The notes under the pieces are model-generated. The model ran no database searches, was not told the DNA's origin, and was given only the letters and a program-made list of their open reading frames with translations. Made by a program: the position numbers and the translations under genes. From the NCBI GenBank assembly GCA_030602715.1, contig JAUVZD010000002.1:201603-265602 (forward strand): 64,000 nucleotides of DNA, written 5' to 3'. Position 1 is the stretch's first letter. Each line of letters begins with the position of its first letter. The DNA comes from Candidatus Coatesiibacteriota bacterium. GTDB lineage: Bacteria; RBG-13-66-14; B26-G2; JAUVZD01. Below are positions 3,058 to 64,000 of this stretch, piece after piece.

Positions 3058-4728
3058 TCACTCCAGCCCCACCACATTACCCCCCTCGTCTATGTCCAGG
3101 CGCATAGCCGCCGGCTCGGCGGGAAGCCCGGGCATGCGGATTATGTCGCCGGTGAACACCACCAGGAAACCTGCGCCGGCGTTTATGATTATCTGCCGAA
3201 CGGTAACCAGGAAGTCCTTGGGGCGACCGAGCAGTTTCGGGTCGTCGGAGAGCGACTTCTGGGTCTTGGCGATGCAGACCGGCAATTTGGCGTAGCCCAG
3301 TCGGGAGATCCTCCTCAGGTCCCGCTTTGCCTGACGGGTGTAATCCACCGCCTGCGCGCCGTAAATCTTGTTTGCCACCGCAAATATCTTACCCTCCACC
3401 GAATCGTTCCAGTCATACATGGGCGCAAAGGGGCGGTTCTCCCCGCTTGCGGTCTCCCGCACCACCTCAGCCAGCTCCACCGCCCCCTCTCCCCCCCTAG
3501 CCCATCCGTCGCAGACGGCGAAGGGGTTACCCCGCTCCTCACACATGCGCCGAACCACCGCTATCTCCTCCTCGGTGTCCGTCGTGAAGCGGTTGAGGGC
3601 CACAACCGGCGATTCCTTGAAATGACCGATGCTCTCCAGATGTTTCCTCAGATTGGGTAGTCCCCGCTCCACCGCCTGCGGGTCGGGCTCGGTCAGCTGG
3701 TCGGGCTCCTTTCCCCCGTGCAGTTTGAGCGCCCTTATCGTCGCTACCAGAACCACCGCATATGGGTCCAGGTTTGCAGAGACGCATTTGATGTCAAAGA
3801 ACTTCTCGGCGCCCAGATCAAAGCCGAAGCCGGCCTCGGTGATACACCAATCGGCGAGGGCTAGAGCGGTCTTGGTCGCCACCACCGAGTTGGTCCCCTG
3901 GGCTATGTTGGCGAAGGGGCCGCCGTGGATGAGGGCTGGGGTGCCCTCCATGGTCTGCACCAGATTGGGCTTGAGGGCATCCTTGAGCAGAACGGTCATA
4001 GCCCCGTCGGTTCTCAGGTCTCTAGCATAGACCGGCTCTCTATCATAGGTGAAGCCGACCAGTATGTTTCCCAGTCGGTGCTTGAGGTCACCCAAATCCT
4101 CCGCCAGGCAGAGGATGGCCATCACCTCGGAGGCGGCGGTGATGTCAAAGAAAGATTCGTGGGGGACGCCGTCGGTGGGTTTGCCCAAGCCGACGACGAT
4201 ATCCCGCAATTCCCGGTCGTTTATGTCCACCACCCTGCCCCACCTGACTCGCCGGGGGTCAATCCGGGGGTCAAGTCGGCGGTAGATGTGGTTGTCCACC
4301 ATAGCTGTGAGCAGGTTGTGAGCGCTCCCCACGGCGTGGATGTCGCCGGTGAAGTGGAGATTGATATCCTCCATGGGCACCACCTGGCTGTATCCTCCGC
4401 CGGCGGCTCCGCCCTTCATCCCCAGGGTGGGTCCTAAGCTGGGCTGGCGGAGTGCCAGGCAGGTGCGCTCCCCCAGACGAGCCAGACCCATAGCCAGGGC
4501 GATGGAGGTGGTGGTCTTCCCCTCTCCAGCCGGGGTGGGGGTGATAGCCGAGACCAGGATGAGCCTGCCCTTCAGACGGTCTCTGCGAGAATCAAGCACA
4601 TCCAGATGGACCTTTGCCTTGTAGTTGCCGTAGAGGTCAATATCTCCCTCGCTCAAACCCAGGTCCCCCGCCACCTCAACTATCGGTCTCATCTCGGCTG
4701 AGCGGGCAATCTCTAAATCGGTGGGCAC
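3058..4728 (-). CDS. fhs: Formate--tetrahydrofolate ligase
   Basis: The enzyme makes 10-formyl-THF from formate, THF and ATP, in the cytoplasm. It is the entry step of the methyl branch of the Wood-Ljungdahl pathway and feeds one-carbon metabolism generally. The 556-residue length is normal for the family. Visible signatures are the P-loop TPAGEGKTTT near residues 64-73, the RQPSLGPTLGMKGGAAGGGYSQV block near 94-116 with the MEDINLHFTGD stretch after it, and GGPFANIAQG-x-NSV near 270-284. The start GTG lies a few bases after a GAGGAGG-like site. It has its own near-consensus promoter at 4764-4792. With glyA at 48.3 kb it indicates active folate-linked C1 metabolism; no other Wood-Ljungdahl gene is in view. 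Confidence 0.97.
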   Translation of the reverse strand: MPTDLEIARSAEMRPIVEVAGDLGLSEGDIDLYGNYKAKVHLDVLDSRRDRLKGRLILVSAITPTPAGEGKTTTSIALAMGLARLGERTCLALRQPSLGPTLGMKGGAAGGGYSQVVPMEDINLHFTGDIHAVGSAHNLLTAMVDNHIYRRLDPRIDPRRVRWGRVVDINDRELRDIVVGLGKPTDGVPHESFFDITAASEVMAILCLAEDLGDLKHRLGNILVGFTYDREPVYARDLRTDGAMTVLLKDALKPNLVQTMEGTPALIHGGPFANIAQGTNSVVATKTALALADWCITEAGFGFDLGAEKFFDIKCVSANLDPYAVVLVATIRALKLHGGKEPDQLTEPDPQAVERGLPNLRKHLESIGHFKESPVVALNRFTTDTEEEIAVVRRMCEERGNPFAVCDGWARGGEGAVELAEVVRETASGENRPFAPMYDWNDSVEGKIFAVANKIYGAQAVDYTRQAKRDLRRISRLGYAKLPVCIAKTQKSLSDDPKLLGRPKDFLVTVRQIIINAGAGFLVVFTGDIIRMPGLPAEPAAMRLDIDEGGNVVGLE

Positions 4729-12620: not shown

Positions 12621-13655
12621 CTATCTCTCCTTCTCCAATCGCAACTGCTCGTGTTCCACATAGCTTTTGGAAAAGTGGTGGGAGCCGTCCCCGCAGGAGA
12701 TAAAGAATAGATAGTCAACATCTGCGGGCGCAACAGATGCGATAAGTGATTTCAACCCCGGGGAGCAGATAGGTCCCGGGGGAAGCTTATTATACTTATA
12801 AGTATTATACGGATGGTCCACCTTCAAGTCCTGAATGGTGATGCGCTCATCGGTCTTATCCACCGCATAGAGAACCGTGGCGCAGGACTCCAGCCGCATC
12901 CCCCTATCCAGCCGGTTATGGAAGACCGCCGAGACCAGGGCCCGCTCCTCGTCCAACAGCGCCTCTTTCTCTATTATTGAAGCCAGGGTCACTATCTGGT
13001 GCATGCTCATCCCCGAATCCTCCGCCGCATCCGACAGCTCCTCCCGCCACAGCTCAAGGAAGCGTCCCACCATCATTGCCACTATCTCCTCGGCGGTGGT
13101 CTCCTCACTCACCAAATAGGTGTCCGGGAAAAGATAGCCCTCCAGGCTCTCATTTGCCTCAGCGGGCAGTCCCGCAGGTAGCTTCACATCTTTGAGCGCC
13201 CGCTCAAACTCCAAAGTGGTGCAGATTCCCTCCCGTTCCAGAATCTCCCCTATACCCATAAGCCGAGTTCCCTCCGGGATGGTGAAGCGCTTGGTGTGCA
13301 CCTGACCCGTGGATATGACGCCGATTATCTGTTGAGTGCTCATTGAGGGAGAGAGCGCATAACTTCCCGCTTGCAAATTATCATCCAGCCTCTTCAACTT
13401 AGCCCAAAGGCGGAAAGCCCAAGCGCTTCTTATCAGTCCCTCCTCCTCCAGTAGTTCGGCGATTTCGCCGGCGTCGGCTCCCTCGGGGATGCGCACCAGC
13501 TTCGGGGATACCTCCTCCTCGCTCAGCGGGGAAAGTACTCCTTGAAGATAATCGTAGATGAAATAGCCGGCAAGGACTGTAGCAAGCACCAAAACGAAGA
13601 GGATGATGCTAAACCTGACTCGCCGTTTCCTCTTGCTCGTTCCCTTTTTCGCCAT
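12621..13655 (-). CDS. mltG: Endolytic murein transglycosylase MltG
   Basis: MltG cleaves nascent peptidoglycan strands and helps end glycan polymerisation at the inner membrane. The 344-residue protein has a basic cytoplasmic tip, one membrane segment (about residues 14-35) and the YceG domain. The catalytic Glu lies in ASIIEKEA (near 228), followed by FHNRL and the ATVLYA stretch; YNTYKYNKLPPGPICSPG near 289-306 is the family signature. ATG 13655 is chosen over the in-frame GTG at 13664 because GGGGTG sits 7 nt before it. It is the last gene of a minus-strand envelope operon, 11 nt downstream of the propeller gene. Confidence 0.95.
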   Translation of the reverse strand: MAKKGTSKRKRRVRFSIILFVLVLATVLAGYFIYDYLQGVLSPLSEEEVSPKLVRIPEGADAGEIAELLEEEGLIRSAWAFRLWAKLKRLDDNLQAGSYALSPSMSTQQIIGVISTGQVHTKRFTIPEGTRLMGIGEILEREGICTTLEFERALKDVKLPAGLPAEANESLEGYLFPDTYLVSEETTAEEIVAMMVGRFLELWREELSDAAEDSGMSMHQIVTLASIIEKEALLDEERALVSAVFHNRLDRGMRLESCATVLYAVDKTDERITIQDLKVDHPYNTYKYNKLPPGPICSPGLKSLIASVAPADVDYLFFISCGDGSHHFSKSYVEHEQLRLEKER

Positions 13656-52354: not shown

Positions 52355-53644
52355 TCACTCCCCCTGCACCAGAATCTTTGCCAGCTCCCCCACCTGCCCT
52401 TTTTGAAGGGTGCGGGCGAAGAAGAGGGCTTTCCCTCCTCCACGAAGATAATATACGCCCTCATCATGAAGCCGTTCAGCCGTCCTTTCGCTGATCTCTA
52501 TCTCCAAAGCAGAACCCGTTCGCATCTCGCCCAGACAGAAGCCCTCTCGCTCTTTGGGTCTTAGCTTGCCGAAAACCGGCTTTAAGGCTCCAGCCAGTTG
52601 GAAAGCCCTCCGTCTTACCGTTGATTCCGCCTGATAGAGGGGGCTAAGGACGGGATGAGCCCTTTCCCAATCCCGCAGGGAGTAGTTGGCAAGCCGAGCG
52701 GAGGTCAAAGCACATTGCCCGGGGTCAGCCAGCCACACCCCGCCCCCGCGAGCCCGGCGAAGCTCGTCCAGGGCTTCGCCCCACTCACCCTGCCCGATGA
52801 CCAGAGCTCCCCCGGAAAGCCCCAGCAGACCTAATCCGCTGACCAGAATCAGGTCATAGCCGTCGGCGAGGGCTCGGTCTATGAGCAGGTCCGGGCGGAA
52901 GGGCGTCTCTTGTGGGGCGAAGGGGAGGGCGCCGTCCAGTATCAGGATGCGTGGGCAATCATGCTCGCCGGCTATGGCGGACATCTCCGCACTGGATGGC
53001 TGGGCGGTGAAGCCGGCAACAGCCACCTGAGGGGAGCGCACCTCAAGGAGTGCGCACCGCCCCGCCTGCTGCTTCAATATTTGGGCATAGTCATCGGCTC
53101 TGGTCTTGTTGGAGGTGCCCACCTCCACCAGTTCCAGCCTGAGCGCCCGGCACAGGTCGGCGATGTTTCCCGCCCGTAGATGAAGCACCTCCCGCCGGGC
53201 GATGACCATAGCATTGTAGTCTCGCTCCCCGATCAGCCAGGCGGCGACCCCCAATGCTGAGGGTAGGCTCCCGGCCAGGGCGCAGCGCTCCATTCCCAGG
53301 GCGGATGTTGCCAGGGAAAATCCCCTGTCGCCGTCAGTGGACAGGGACGAGACCTCTTTGAGTCCCGAAAGCGGCTGGGGGGGCAAAGGGGGATAATGGG
53401 GGAGGGCGTAGTGGAGAGGGTCGCCGGTGGCGTTGATTGGAGAGTGCTCTGCGAAGAGGGTGGAGAGAAGCTCAGCGACCGCGTTCGGGTAGTCGGCGAT
53501 CTCCTCGCCGGCGCGGGCTCGCTCTATCACCCGCCTGCAAGCGGAGGCGACCAAGGGCTTCCCCCACCCCTCTATCAGCTCCTGCAGAGCAGGATGGGAG
53601 AGCAGTTTTCCGACCGCCGGGGGATGGGAGTCATTTGTTTGAAT
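52355..53644 (-). CDS. selA: L-seryl-tRNA(Sec) selenium transferase, probable ATT start
   Basis: SelA is a PLP enzyme that converts seryl-tRNA(Sec) to selenocysteinyl-tRNA(Sec). Family traits are INATGDPLHYALPHYPPL near the N-terminus, the long fold-type I core with LEVRSPQVAVAGFTAQP and FRPDLLIDRALADGYDLILVSG. The usual PLP-lysine region near GGALVIGQGEWGEALD is not clearly conserved, so activity is not certain. TTG 53554 would cut off the SelA N-terminal domain. In-frame codons upstream encode VGKLLSHPALQELIEGWGK, matching that domain. No ATG/GTG/TTG precedes it, but ATT 53644 stands 6 nt after TTTTGGAGG. From ATT the protein has 429 residues. It follows the 5'-nucleotidase gene by 42 bp. 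Confidence 0.78.
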   Translation of the reverse strand: MQTNDSHPPAVGKLLSHPALQELIEGWGKPLVASACRRVIERARAGEEIADYPNAVAELLSTLFAEHSPINATGDPLHYALPHYPPLPPQPLSGLKEVSSLSTDGDRGFSLATSALGMERCALAGSLPSALGVAAWLIGERDYNAMVIARREVLHLRAGNIADLCRALRLELVEVGTSNKTRADDYAQILKQQAGRCALLEVRSPQVAVAGFTAQPSSAEMSAIAGEHDCPRILILDGALPFAPQETPFRPDLLIDRALADGYDLILVSGLGLLGLSGGALVIGQGEWGEALDELRRARGGGVWLADPGQCALTSARLANYSLRDWERAHPVLSPLYQAESTVRRRAFQLAGALKPVFGKLRPKEREGFCLGEMRTGSALEIEISERTAERLHDEGVYYLRGGGKALFFARTLQKGQVGELAKILVQGE

Positions 53645-56825: not shown

Positions 56826-57040
56826 ATGAGATGTGCCGAATCCATATTCCTTTCGGCACACACTTTTTTAACGGTAAATCACATGATGCTAAATCACTAA
56901 CCTGAAGAAAGGAGTTTCAGCTATGAGGATGAGATGTGCCGAATCCATGTTCCTTTCGGCACACACATTTTTAACGGTAAATCACACAATTGAGTTTTCC
57001 GCATGATTAATCACTAACCTAAAGAAAGGAATTTCAGCAA
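56826..57040 (+). repeat. Tandemly duplicated leader with a 9-bp hairpin and mini-ORF
   Basis: Two copies (about 56826-56925 and 56929-57040) share GATGAGATGTGCCGAATCCAT, the hairpin TGTGCCGAA/TTCGGCACA (arms 56832-56840/56852-56860 and 56935-56943/56955-56963), ACGGTAAATCACA and a GAAAGGA-TTTCAGC-ATGAG ribosome site and start. The ATG of copy 1 opens a 27-codon ORF (56923-57006) that closes ahead of the real start at 57040. Each copy also encodes an M-R-C-A-E-S mini-ORF over the hairpin. Confidence 0.75.
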
Positions 57041-57834
57041 TGAGATTGATTTTAACAGCAATCCTTGTAGTAACACCCCTTTGTGGGCTTGGCTATGGTA
57101 TGGACATTGATATCACCGTTCTCAACTCTTTCACCTGCCCCTATGCCCAAGAAATAAAGGGTCTGGACTACATTGAAGGCGAAACTGCCATAACATTCGC
57201 CAGTAACTTGGACGATCTTCTCTATACCTGTGACGCCGAAGACGGAACCTACATAGACGATTTGGAGCTGAGCTACACGGGTAATCCCCATCCCTTCGGA
57301 GTATGTTACGACGACAACGACTACGTCCATGTGAACGACTATTCGCAAAACGATATCCACTGGAACAACTACTCCTCCTGGGATGACTACTCCAATCCTT
57401 CGGATAACAAAGGAAGTGGGATGGACTTTGACGGCACCTACATCTGGGAAACCTATTGGACTGATGGGGTATATCGCTTCTTCCCCGACGGCTCCGGTGC
57501 AGAGTTTTTCTATACCGACGAAGTCACCACTCAGATGAGCGGACTGGCGGTATTCCCCTACAATAGCAATCTGGGGATTATGGTAGCCACCCATGGTAAC
57601 CTTATCTTCTACTTCTATGAGTTTGACGGCTCATCAACAACCTACCTCGGCAACGCCAACTGTCCCCTTATAGCCTCTCAATCCCGTGGATTGACCTATT
57701 CCCAGGAGCGCGGAACCTTCTTCTGGAGTTATGCCGTTGGTGGCGTTGACTGGATCAGTGAACTGGGCATAGATTTTAATTACACCGCCGTCCAGCCCGC
57801 CAGTCTGGGCGACATTAAGGCAATCTTCCACTAA
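57040..57834 (+). CDS. Secreted propeller-like protein with C-terminal PASLGDIKAIF tail
   Basis: This 264-residue protein has a signal peptide (residues about 3-20). The mature part is rich in Tyr, Asp and Asn and has recurring strands (GLDYIEGETAITFASNL, FGVCYDDNDYVHVNDY, SGMDFDGTYIWETYW, SGLAVFPYNSNLGIMVAT, GLTYSQERGTFFWSY) that look like propeller blades. It ends AVQPASLGDIKAIFH. The same ending occurs in the gene at 59912-60421 and in remnants at 56347-56540 and 58734-58775. The tail may be a sorting tag or a shared last strand. GAAAGGA precedes the ATG. No function recognised. Confidence 0.8.
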   Translation: MRLILTAILVVTPLCGLGYGMDIDITVLNSFTCPYAQEIKGLDYIEGETAITFASNLDDLLYTCDAEDGTYIDDLELSYTGNPHPFGVCYDDNDYVHVNDYSQNDIHWNNYSSWDDYSNPSDNKGSGMDFDGTYIWETYWTDGVYRFFPDGSGAEFFYTDEVTTQMSGLAVFPYNSNLGIMVATHGNLIFYFYEFDGSSTTYLGNANCPLIASQSRGLTYSQERGTFFWSYAVGGVDWISELGIDFNYTAVQPASLGDIKAIFH

Positions 57835-59911: not shown

Positions 59912-60421
59912 ATGAAAAGCTGGTGGTCTTTAACGTTGCTGGTAATGGCTGTATCTGTAACGACGGTATCGGCGGGAACATTCTCTGTGGACTTCCCTCT
60001 ATCCTCTGACACCTGGGAGCTTTCTGATTATCCCAACTGGTGGAACTATGGCGATACCATCTATGGCGATAGGAACCTGGGATACTCCGATTTAACCCAG
60101 GTCACTATCTATCTGCCTATCCTATATAACAACCTAAGCTACTCCGGATATGTAGACCTGGACCTAAGGTTGAACAGCACCACCGTAGCCTCCTTCACGA
60201 TAACCGCCGCCGACGGCTCCGGTATGTTGATACGCAACTTCGCCATCTCCTATTCCCCCTCAGGAACCACAGAAGTTCGCTACTTTGAGACCAACCAAAT
60301 AACCCCCGGAGCAGGTTACATCGTCATAGGCGAGGAGGAAGGTCATCTTGACTTTGTAAACACCGACCCCGATGTAGTCCAACCCGCTTCACTGGGTCAT
60401 GTTAAAGCTATATTCAAATAG
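59912..60421 (+). CDS. Secreted protein with C-terminal PASLGHVKAIF tail
   Basis: This 169-residue protein has a signal peptide (hydrophobic residues about 6-22, ending VSAGTF). The mature part is Tyr/Ser/Thr/Asn-rich and strand-forming (YGDRNLGYSDLTQVTIYLPIL, then YSGYVDLDLRLNSTTVASFTITAADGSG). It ends VVQPASLGHVKAIFK. Outside the tail it is not alignable by eye with the 57040 protein, so the tail is shared by otherwise different proteins, which argues for a transferable sorting or anchoring tag. AAAGGAG precedes the ATG; own promoter and terminator. Confidence 0.8.
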   Translation: MKSWWSLTLLVMAVSVTTVSAGTFSVDFPLSSDTWELSDYPNWWNYGDTIYGDRNLGYSDLTQVTIYLPILYNNLSYSGYVDLDLRLNSTTVASFTITAADGSGMLIRNFAISYSPSGTTEVRYFETNQITPGAGYIVIGEEEGHLDFVNTDPDVVQPASLGHVKAIFK

Positions 60422-60858: not shown

Positions 60859-61173
60859 ATGAGATTCTGGCGGACTCCTTTTGACATTGACAAGATGACC
60901 ATACCCCACGGCGAACTACACATCATCAACGACCGCTGTAAGGGTTGTGAGTTCTGCGTCCAATACTGCCCCAAGGATGTCCTGGAGATGTCAAAAGAAT
61001 TCAATGTCAAAGGCTATCACTACCCCACCGCGGTTCGCCCGGACGACTGCGTCAACTGCGGACTCTGCGAGATGATCTGTCCCGAGTTTGCCATCTACTG
61101 CGTCAGCACCAATGAAAAAGGCGACGAGAATAAGAAAGCCGGCGCTAAGAAAAAGTCCAAGGAGGGGAAATAG
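60859..61173 (+). CDS. korD: 2-oxoacid:ferredoxin oxidoreductase, ferredoxin subunit (delta)
   Basis: The 104-residue protein contains two [4Fe-4S] ferredoxin motifs: CKGCEFCVQYCPKD near residues 28-41 and CVNCGLCEMICPEF near 64-77. It ends in a Lys-rich tail. It carries electrons from the thiamine centre of the oxidoreductase. It is the first gene of korDABC and directly abuts korA. AGGTAGAG lies before the ATG. Confidence 0.93.
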   Translation: MRFWRTPFDIDKMTIPHGELHIINDRCKGCEFCVQYCPKDVLEMSKEFNVKGYHYPTAVRPDDCVNCGLCEMICPEFAIYCVSTNEKGDENKKAGAKKKSKEGK

Positions 61174-62331
61174 GTGAAGGCTGACCCCAAAGGAGTGCTT
61201 ACCGGCGCCCACTACATTGACGGCGACCACGCCTGCGCTGAGGGAGCCATCGCCGCAGGTTGCCGTTTCTTCGCCGGCTATCCCATCACCCCATCAACGG
61301 AAGCAGCCGAGCGCATCGCCTCTCGCTTTCCTTTCGTCGGGGGGACATTCATACAAATGGAGGACGAGCTGGCAAGCATGGCTGCCATCCTGGGCGCCTC
61401 CTGGGGGGGACGCAAGTCCATGACCGTAACCTCCGGTCCCGGCTTCTCCCTTATGATGGAAAACATAGGCTTGGGGGTGATGATGGAGGTGCCTTGTGTG
61501 ATAGCCAACGTCCAACGGGGAGGTCCCTCCACCGGCCTGCCCACCATGGTGGGACAGCAGGATATGATGCAAGCTCGCTGGGGCTCCCACGGAGACTATG
61601 CCATAATCGCCCTTGCCCCCCAATCACCACAGGAATCGTTTGATTTGACCATAACCGCCTTCAATTTCTCCGAGAAATATCGGGTTCCGGTGCTGTTTAT
61701 GCTTGACGAGTGCATAGGGCACATGACCGAGAAGGTGGTCATACCTCCGGCGGAGGAGATAGAGATTGAACCCCGCCGCCTTACCGATAAACCCCCCGGC
61801 GATTACCTGCCTTACGAGACCGGCAAAGACCTGATTCCTGATATGGCTGACGCCGGTATGGGCTATCGCTTCCACACCACCGGCTTGACCCACGATGAGC
61901 GGGGCTACCCGGATATGTCCGTCGAATGTCAGGGCAAATTGGTTCGCCGGCTGATGGATAAAATTAATAATCGTGTTGATGATATTACCATCATTAGGAA
62001 GGAGAAGATTGACGGCGCCGAGGTAATACTCCTCTCCTACGGTATCTCCGCCAGGGTATCAACCCTCTCCATAGAAAAGGCACGAAAAAAAGGCGTAAAG
62101 GTAGGTCGGGTCCGCCTGATAACCATCTGGCCTTTCCCTGAAAAGGAAATCGCCAAGCTGGCGGATAAGATAAAAGCATTTATCGTTCCCGAGATCAACA
62201 TGGGTCAGATCTCACGGGAGGTGGAGCGGGTGGTTGCGGGCAAATGTGATGTAATCTCCGTCCCCCACGCAGGAGGGGGAGTACACGACCCGGAGGTAAT
62301 TCTTGAAGCGATTATGGAGGCGGTAAAATGA
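61174..62331 (+). CDS. korA: 2-oxoacid:ferredoxin oxidoreductase, alpha subunit
   Basis: This 385-residue protein carries the pyrimidine-binding and transketolase-C-like domains of the OFOR family. AGCRFFAGYPITPSTEAAERIA is near residues 28-49, IQMEDELASMAAILGASWGG near 60-79, and TSGPGFSLMMENIGLG near 86-101. It should act with KorB, C and D on 2-oxoglutarate or a similar 2-oxoacid, making the acyl-CoA, CO2 and reduced ferredoxin, or running in reverse to fix CO2. GTG start with AAGGAGGGG ahead. It overlaps korB by 4 bp (ATGA). Confidence 0.93.
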   Translation: MKADPKGVLTGAHYIDGDHACAEGAIAAGCRFFAGYPITPSTEAAERIASRFPFVGGTFIQMEDELASMAAILGASWGGRKSMTVTSGPGFSLMMENIGLGVMMEVPCVIANVQRGGPSTGLPTMVGQQDMMQARWGSHGDYAIIALAPQSPQESFDLTITAFNFSEKYRVPVLFMLDECIGHMTEKVVIPPAEEIEIEPRRLTDKPPGDYLPYETGKDLIPDMADAGMGYRFHTTGLTHDERGYPDMSVECQGKLVRRLMDKINNRVDDITIIRKEKIDGAEVILLSYGISARVSTLSIEKARKKGVKVGRVRLITIWPFPEKEIAKLADKIKAFIVPEINMGQISREVERVVAGKCDVISVPHAGGGVHDPEVILEAIMEAVK

Positions 62332-63254
62332 GCTCAAAGTCCACCACAAAAACACCCCAAGCGGAGCGGGTAACCACCACCGAAGACATCCATCCCATGA
62401 CCGGTTTTCTGCGCATGGATAGGATGCCCCACATCTGGTGTCCTACATGTGGCATAGGAACCACGGTCAAATGTTTTGCTGCCGCACTGGATAAAGAGAA
62501 TTACGATTTAGACAAAGTAGCTGTGGTCTCGGGAATAGGATGCACCGGTCGGGTGGCGGGCTACATGAAACTGGACTCCTTCCACACCACCCACGGTAGA
62601 GCTATACCCTTTGCCACCGGTTTGCATCTGGCGAACCCGGAGCTCAAGGTGGTGGTCTTCTCCGGGGACGGCGACCTTATAGCCATCGGGGGGAATCACT
62701 TCATCCACGCCGCCCGCAGAAATATAGACATCACCGTCATCTGCATCAACAACTTCATCTACGGCATGACCGGGGGGCAATGCGCTCCCACCACTCCACT
62801 GACCGCAAATACCTCCACCACCCCCTACGGCAACTATGAGCACCCCTTTAACCTGCCCCATCTGGCGACCTCCTGCGGAGCGGTCTATGTGGCGCGCTGG
62901 TCAGCCCTACACATCCGCCGCCTCACCAAGTCCCTGCAGGAAGCTCTGCGTAAAAAGGGGTTCTCCTTCGTTGAGGTGATTACCCCCTGTTCAACCCTCT
63001 ACGCCCGCAGAAACAAGCTGGGCACCGGACTGGATTTGATGAACTACTACCACGACATGTGCGAAATTGACCACGATGTGCACCCGGAGGATGTGGATAT
63101 AAACTTCCAGGAGAATATCACCCTGGGTAAGTTTGTGGACATAGAGAAACCAACCTTCCTAGACTGCCTGGAAGACGGTTATAAGGAGAAGTTGGGGGAC
63201 AAGTATCTAAGCGTTCGCAGTTCACACACTAGGGAGTTAGTGGGACATGATTAA
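62328..63254 (+). CDS. korB: 2-oxoacid:ferredoxin oxidoreductase, beta (TPP-binding) subunit
   Basis: The 308-residue subunit binds thiamine diphosphate. IWCPTCGIGTTVKCFAAAL near residues 36-54 and the VVSGIGCTGRVAGYM segment near 65-79 are typical. The TPP motif runs from GDGDLIAIGGNHFIHAARRN (near 112-131) to INNFIYGMTGGQCAPTTP (near 139-156). It also ligates the internal [4Fe-4S] cluster through conserved Cys residues. It overlaps korA and korC, so all are one operon. Confidence 0.94.
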   Translation: MSSKSTTKTPQAERVTTTEDIHPMTGFLRMDRMPHIWCPTCGIGTTVKCFAAALDKENYDLDKVAVVSGIGCTGRVAGYMKLDSFHTTHGRAIPFATGLHLANPELKVVVFSGDGDLIAIGGNHFIHAARRNIDITVICINNFIYGMTGGQCAPTTPLTANTSTTPYGNYEHPFNLPHLATSCGAVYVARWSALHIRRLTKSLQEALRKKGFSFVEVITPCSTLYARRNKLGTGLDLMNYYHDMCEIDHDVHPEDVDINFQENITLGKFVDIEKPTFLDCLEDGYKEKLGDKYLSVRSSHTRELVGHD

Positions 63255-63828
63255 GGGTCAAGTAGAGATTCGGGTAACCGGCTACGGCGGTCAGGGGGTG
63301 GTGCTCTCCGGCTACATAATCGGTCGGGCGGTAACCATCTACGATGATAAGAACGCCACCATGACCCAGAGCTTCGGACCTGAAGCCCGAGGAAGTGCCT
63401 GCTCCATCTCCATGATTATCTCCCCCGACCCTATCTACTACCCTTATGTTACCTCCCCCAATATTCTGATCGTCATGTCACCTGAGGGCTATACAAAACA
63501 CTATCCCGGCGTCACCGACGATGCAATAATCATCGTTGAAGAGGACATAGTCCACCCGGGAAAGATTAAAGATACCCAGACCCTATACACCTGCCCCGCT
63601 ACCCGCATAGCCGAGGAATTGGGTCGCCGGCTGGTGCTCAATGTGGTAATGTTGGGCTTCTTCACCGCAGCCACGGAGCTCATTTCCGAAGAAGCGATGC
63701 GAAAATCCATAGAAGCCTCGGTTCCTGAAGGAACCCAAAAGCTGAATCTAACGGCTTTTAATAATGGTTATGCCTACTTCCAAGAATCAAAAGAAAAGGC
63801 AGAAGAAAAAGCCCGAACCCAAGCCTAA
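63247..63828 (+). CDS. korC: 2-oxoacid:ferredoxin oxidoreductase, gamma subunit
   Basis: The 193-residue subunit starts [22 protein letters not shown] and continues [21 protein letters not shown], both hallmarks of the OFOR gamma domain, which binds coenzyme A and completes the complex. It overlaps the end of korB by 8 bp, and its own 3' end overlaps hdrA by about 60 bp, indicating tight translational coupling. Confidence 0.93.
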
Positions 63829-64000
63829 GTATGAAGAGAAAGGTGTCTTAGTCTTAGGAGGGGGAATATCCGGCATTCAAGCGGCGCTTGATTTAGCCCG
63901 TGCCCGGATAAGGGTCTATCTGGTTGAGCGCTCCCCCACACTTGGTGGGCGGATGGCTCAACTGGACAAGACCTTCCCCACCATGGACTGCTCCATCTGA
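63764..64000 (+). CDS. hdrA: HdrA-like flavoprotein, partial; last codon TGA is a predicted selenocysteine codon
   Basis: After a Lys-rich N-terminus, the frame enters the FAD-binding fold [20 protein letters not shown] and then [29 protein letters not shown]. This is the core of the heterodisulfide-reductase A family, which uses FAD and iron-sulfur clusters and can bifurcate electrons. In relatives the next residue is Cys (DCSxC followed by hydrophobic residues and P-K-M). Here that codon is TGA at 63998-64000, the last bases of the window. Selenocysteine forms of HdrA are known, and this window encodes selA, so the TGA is probably read as Sec. Start ATG 63764 or 63770, inside korC. If TGA were a true stop the product would be only 78 residues. 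Confidence 0.8.

Follow-up and report, generated by a model that had tools for sequence, protein, structure and literature searches.

At the 3′ end of the window (the whole 64,000-nucleotide stretch of DNA analysed here), the genes for a 2-oxoglutarate:ferredoxin oxidoreductase are followed by the 5′ part of an hdrA gene whose reading frame runs into a TGA codon. The features concerned, all on the + strand, are as follows.

60859..61173, + strand: korD, delta subunit of 2-oxoglutarate:ferredoxin oxidoreductase
61174..62331, + strand: korA, alpha subunit
62328..63254, + strand: korB, beta subunit
63247..63828, + strand: korC, gamma subunit, whose frame overlaps the beginning of hdrA
63764..64000, + strand: hdrA 5′ part, comprising 78 codons from the FAD (thioredoxin-reductase-like) domain and then a putative selenocysteine (Sec) codon
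63998..64000, + strand: TGA predicted to be read as Sec, aligned with Cys197 of Methanothermococcus HdrA (5odc_A numbering); contig C4 ends with these three bases

The overlap between korC and hdrA is also seen in some orthologous operons. The hdrA frame (63764-63997, + strand) encodes 78 residues ending in FPTMDCSI, immediately before the TGA at 63998-64000, although most orthologues begin MPS.., which favours ATG 63770 over 63764 as the start. This 78-residue segment matches positions 132-192 of HdrA2 (NF040770; E 1.1e-22) and contains both the FAD-binding GGGxxG segment and the (F/Y)PTxDCSx(C/U)IL motif by which HdrA is recognised. The open reading frame is as described in the original prediction, which had it passing through the FAD core of HdrA to FPTMDCSI and meeting TGA at the position of a Cys; that an HdrA frame is interrupted by TGA is confirmed. 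A whole-genome search places the window at C4:201603-265602. Contig C4 is 265602 bp in length, so that window and contig both end at the TGA, and the codons that follow it are therefore absent from the assembly.

Gene order and the missing 3′ end of hdrA

In relatives, the genes are arranged in the order korD-korA-korB-korC-fused hdrA(Sec)-mvhD-hdrD-hdrA/mvhD(Sec)-hdrC-hdrB, an order that is kept in about 20 genomes. Contig C5 of the present genome opens with QIESMLTSMLTQEAK and a stop codon, followed by mvhD, hdrD, hdrA-mvhD (Sec), hdrC and hdrB. The 15 opening residues resemble the C-termini of fused HdrA proteins (best score 31, with 0 of 1000 shuffles; other orthologues score more weakly) and appear to represent the probable last 15 codons of the window hdrA. 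On the basis of the gene order in relatives and of this resemblance, C4 and C5 are most likely neighbours with ~2.9 kb missing between them, the size of the gap being estimated from orthologue lengths. When the missing 3′ part of hdrA was sought in the same genome, only other paralogues were found. In the papers searched, a partial set without subscription titles, there was nothing specific on the kor-hdr operon in these lineages, nor was a conserved kor-hdr operon encoding two selenoproteins found.

On C5, about 3.4 kb (L009, 1900-5300) lies between hdrD and the Sec-containing hdrA-mvhD gene; relatives have hardly any sequence there. By eye, two short pairs of genes in this segment look like MNT/HEPN-type modules, and it also includes an extra partial copy of hdrD (3551-3658, 81% identical).

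A conserved TGA in HdrA orthologues and a paralogue

Searching relatives with the 78 residues identified close orthologues in seven places: one each in G002, G003, G006, G014 and G019 and two in G004. Each aligns as far as residue 78, where the open frame stops, and in each the next codon is TGA. Past the TGA the frame continues with ILGPKMMD.., as had been anticipated, for about 955-1441 codons, the lower figure of 522 in G006 being due to a masked stretch in that record. The same-genome paralogue on C5 (L009:5346-7805) likewise reads DCSI-TGA-ILGPKMM and then runs for a further 618 codons to give an HdrA-MvhD fusion. With Cys written for its one TGA, this 819 aa protein scores 1175 bits against NF040770 (HdrA2), above the curated cut-off of 1100. 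The TGA sits where homologues have Cys, both among the orthologues and in a further paralogue on C3 that reads DCSQCIL, with Cys at the Sec position.

A scan of named genomes added 80 loci to the comparison of HdrA sites. Across all HdrA loci fetched, the codon after DCSx is TGA in 51 cases and TGC or TGT in 69, with TAA and TAG absent (0), and these counts indicate that TGA occurs at the site more often than chance would allow. Records in which the site is TGA are labelled Zixiibacteriota, KSB1, Gemmatimonadota, Phycisphaerae, Planctomycetales, Armatimonadetes and Acidobacteria and, in addition, Deltaproteobacteria, Eisenbacteria, Chloroflexi, Ardenticatenia, Thermoflexales, Anaerolineales and a Helarchaeon. 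In Zixibacteria, KSB1, Gemmatimonadota, Planctomycetes, Acidobacteria and others, the TGA-bearing orthologues lie behind the same korDABC genes.

These results bear directly on the alternative of a genuine stop codon in a decayed, truncated hdrA. That the contig ends at the TGA is compatible with such a view, but orthologues from many phyla have TGA at the same codon with long intact frames beyond it, the same-genome paralogue is intact, and decay would be expected to produce mixed stops and frameshifts, yet neither TAA nor TAG is seen. We consider a true stop very improbable, and the earlier judgement that Sec insertion is likelier than a truncated gene holds. The comparison supports the interpretation of the window TGA as a probable Sec codon. 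It was also foreseen that annotation would split the gene, and ORFs of 963 aa and 617 aa do indeed begin immediately after the TGA in relatives and the paralogue. Annotation would break up both the window gene and the second Sec gene of its operon into spurious pieces in this way, hiding two selenoproteins per genome across several bacterial phyla; that HdrA genes can be lost to misread Sec codons has been noted before (PMC12054007).

At two loci (L111, 6163; L138, 6193), the same operon has Cys in the first (fused) HdrA and retains Sec in the second, so that Sec and Cys have been exchanged naturally at one site of the pair. Separately, G004 (L088, TGA at 13423) and also G006 (L091) encode an extra Sec-containing HdrA directly behind korC with a GltD-like NAD(P)H insert, resembling HdrL/type III HdrA.

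Selenocysteine machinery and the downstream hairpin

Incorporation of Sec would require dedicated machinery, the genes for which are located as follows.

C3:338074-339957: selB
C3:336968-337061: tRNA-Sec (selC), 71.3 bits
C3:335759-336904: selA, 446.6 bits, without the N-terminal domain
C11:106248-107171: selD, with one in-frame TGA of its own

SelA, SelB, SelC and SelD are thus all present in the genome, with selB, tRNA-Sec and selA clustered together on C3; of the three genes proposed for searching, selB and selC were found on C3 and selD on C11. The selA gene that the original prediction placed in the window did not survive scrutiny. The SelA-like gene at 52355-53644 (- strand) encodes a degenerate paralogue that scores 65 bits, against an NCBIfam cut-off of 267.9, and reads SGLGLLGL in place of SGDKLLGG, the PLP-binding lysine being absent; it was dropped as evidence for Sec machinery, and the real selA is that on C3. 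This SelA-like gene of the window probably starts at an ATT preceded by a GGAGGT site.

Most genomes of the same phylum (G000-G013, G000 being the present genome) also encode a second, degenerate SelA-like protein, and the window copy and that of G001 carry the SelA N-terminal domain PF12390. Every scorable SelA in G000-G013 (G010 has a fragment only and G012 none) begins at around position 66-73 of the 455-position model, that is, without the N-terminal tRNA-binding domain; SelA proteins of the outgroups G014, G019 and G020 have this domain, and it is stated to be present on SelA in all Sec-using organisms (PMC4607533). SelB scores over the cut-off in all of G000-G013 but G010, and a TGA-containing SelD is found in all but G012. 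Because the SelA of this genome is without the N-terminal tRNA-binding domain, the Sec synthesis step would be unusual. One possibility, which we regard as rather doubtful, is a two-part SelA, in which a catalytic SelA without the tRNA-binding domain would act with a catalytically dead, domain-bearing partner (52355-53644). The SelA oddity could change the view of Sec-tRNA synthesis in these bacteria.

Orthologues have a 7-bp hairpin located 27 nt downstream of the TGA, with a loop of GGUC or GGUA and a folding energy of -10.8 kcal/mol or lower. Published limits for bSECIS elements specify a stem of 4-16 bp, a loop of 3-9 nt with G in the first two loop positions, a distance of 16-37 nt from the TGA and an MFE of at most -7.5 (PMC13188914). 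The orthologue hairpins and that of the C5 paralogue fall within these limits, the latter keeping only 5/7 consensus stem pairs yet folding at -11.5 kcal/mol, whilst the hairpin region of the window gene itself would lie beyond the contig end. A SECIS-like hairpin had been expected within about 40 nt, and 27 nt is what orthologues and the same-genome paralogue display. No family matching the hairpin was found in Rfam for the loci searched.

The hairpin accompanies Sec sites. At least 6 of 7 stem pairs are kept in 45/48 distinct Sec sites compared with 3/69 Cys sites, and mean local folding energies are -10.4 and -3.1 kcal/mol, respectively. A first alignment of 14 sequences did not on its own show covariation, the signal being too weak to count among sequences so alike, but with the wider set it is clear: stem position 29/36 switches between C-G and U-A across the codons GCC/CGG and GTC/CGA, the pair being formed by the second base of a Val/Ala codon and the third, silent base of an Arg codon. 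CGG accompanies GCC in 22 cases and CGA accompanies GTC in 14 (Fisher p 5e-9, for CGN codons and with ancestry not corrected). The switch is present in both operon gene copies, and in opposite directions in different genomes, and therefore arose more than once.

Two further explanations for the TGA can be weighed against these data. In the first, the genetic code would be altered, with TGA generally read as Trp or another residue rather than specifically as Sec. Read-through of in-frame TGA codons in the paralogue and in selD would suit this, but genes here normally end at TGA, as does the C5 hdrA/mvhD gene itself at codon 820, the reassigned codons align to redox Cys positions and not to Trp, Sec machinery is present, and the hairpin goes with TGA and not with Cys codons. 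An altered code seems to us scarcely credible. In the second, conservation of the peptide (M)MD(V/A)GRHP would by itself produce the hairpin, with read-through achieved by other means. Such conservation is good at these sites and constrains the DNA, but twelve GRHP-bearing Cys homologues are mostly without the stem (2-6 of 7 pairs), and the silent third base of the Arg codon tracks the Val/Ala codon (GCC with CGG, GTC with CGA). The chance that the hairpin arises only in this way is, in our estimation, minimal. Reading of TGA as Sec is the interpretation preferred in what follows.

Two-module HdrA and a proposed role for Sec

The orthologues are two-module HdrA proteins. Alignment of their first module to 5odc_A starts at residue 144, with Sec on the DCSIC cysteine (residue 197), and their second module comprises an N-terminal domain and a C-terminal ferredoxin domain with no DCSxC motif. 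This is type II complementarity, in which the second FAD module has the N-terminal domain and the first has the Cys197 position. It has been described that the N-terminal [4Fe-4S] cluster of one HdrA, which lies on the path to ferredoxin, is ligated by Cys197 of the other, and that fusions of HdrA exist in which Cys197 and the N-terminal domain are complementary (PMC9012536).

Comparison across genomes demonstrates the predicted Sec codon, the conserved reading frame, the hairpin, the gene order and the module complementarity; the window gene's own 3′ half we infer. The window gene would then be the 5′ end of a fused two-module (type II) HdrA whose first module is without the HdrA N-terminal domain and has Sec at the Cys197 position. 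SelB with Sec-tRNA would decode the UGA, guided by the hairpin within the coding sequence 27 nt downstream. By analogy with the solved HdrABC, the N-terminal [4Fe-4S] cluster of the partner module would have the Sec as its fourth ligand. Given that Sec aligns to Cys197, that the modules are complementary and that such an arrangement has been described (PMC9012536), the most likely role of the Sec would be that of a selenolate ligand of this cluster within one fused polypeptide. The Sec site would lie on the ferredoxin branch of flavin-based bifurcation, exchanging electrons with the ferredoxin that serves the adjacent 2-oxoglutarate:ferredoxin oxidoreductase; which way electrons flow between the ferredoxin of Kor and the Hdr complex we also infer. 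Taken together, it is highly probable, judging from sequence comparison, that a Sec codon lies in the fifth gene of the operon, this gene encoding a predicted type II HdrA, decoded with SelB and the hairpin, in which Sec would be a cluster ligand.

Much of this has precedent. Both bacteria and archaea are well established to have selenoproteins of the HdrA family (PMC1794560, PMC2702500, PMC13188914), as the original prediction had it for methanogens and some sulfate reducers, with Sec-containing HdrA reported in Syntrophobacter, Desulfotalea, Moorella and methanogens (PMC1794560). Those proteins share with the present ones the HdrA family, Sec encoded by UGA and operons with FrhD/MvhD, and hdrA-hdrA clusters are known in Deltaproteobacteria, but the operons described have frhG-frhA hydrogenase genes, where korDABC, hdrD, hdrC and hdrB are found here (PMC1794560). 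The two thioredoxin-reductase modules of the window-gene orthologues recall type II (two-module) HdrA, and in the operon's second Sec gene hdrA is fused to mvhD, as in type Ia (MvhD-fused) HdrA; the survey of these types covered methane-metabolising archaea, whereas here the organisms are bacteria, with Sec in the first module (PMC12054007). In the fused HdrA3/HdrA4 of ANME and the fused HdrA of Moorella thermoacetica, too, one module has Cys197 without the N-terminal domain and the other the reverse, but in ANME HdrA3/4 the Cys197 module is second, whereas here it is first and the residue is Sec (PMC9012536). Finally, HdrL of Desulfobacterium autotrophicum is a Sec-containing HdrA/glutamate-synthase fusion (PMC2702500); a GltD-like insert is seen in the extra copy of the relative G004 (L088) but not in the 78 residues of the window gene. 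Sec-containing, fused, MvhD-linked and GltD-inserted types of HdrA are all, then, already described, and the putative Sec HdrA of the window, for which the comparative evidence is strong, was rightly predicted and is of a kind to be expected. Sec at the position of a [4Fe-4S] ligand offers a natural test of selenium as a cluster ligand, made possible by the existence of Cys versions of the same operon (L111, L138).

Elsewhere in the window (57040-57834 and 59912-60421, + strand) and on C5 (12266-12910, - strand) are genes for secreted-looking proteins with a common C-terminal tail, VVQPASLG(D/H/S)IK(A/S)(I/L)F(H/K), which is possibly a sorting signal.
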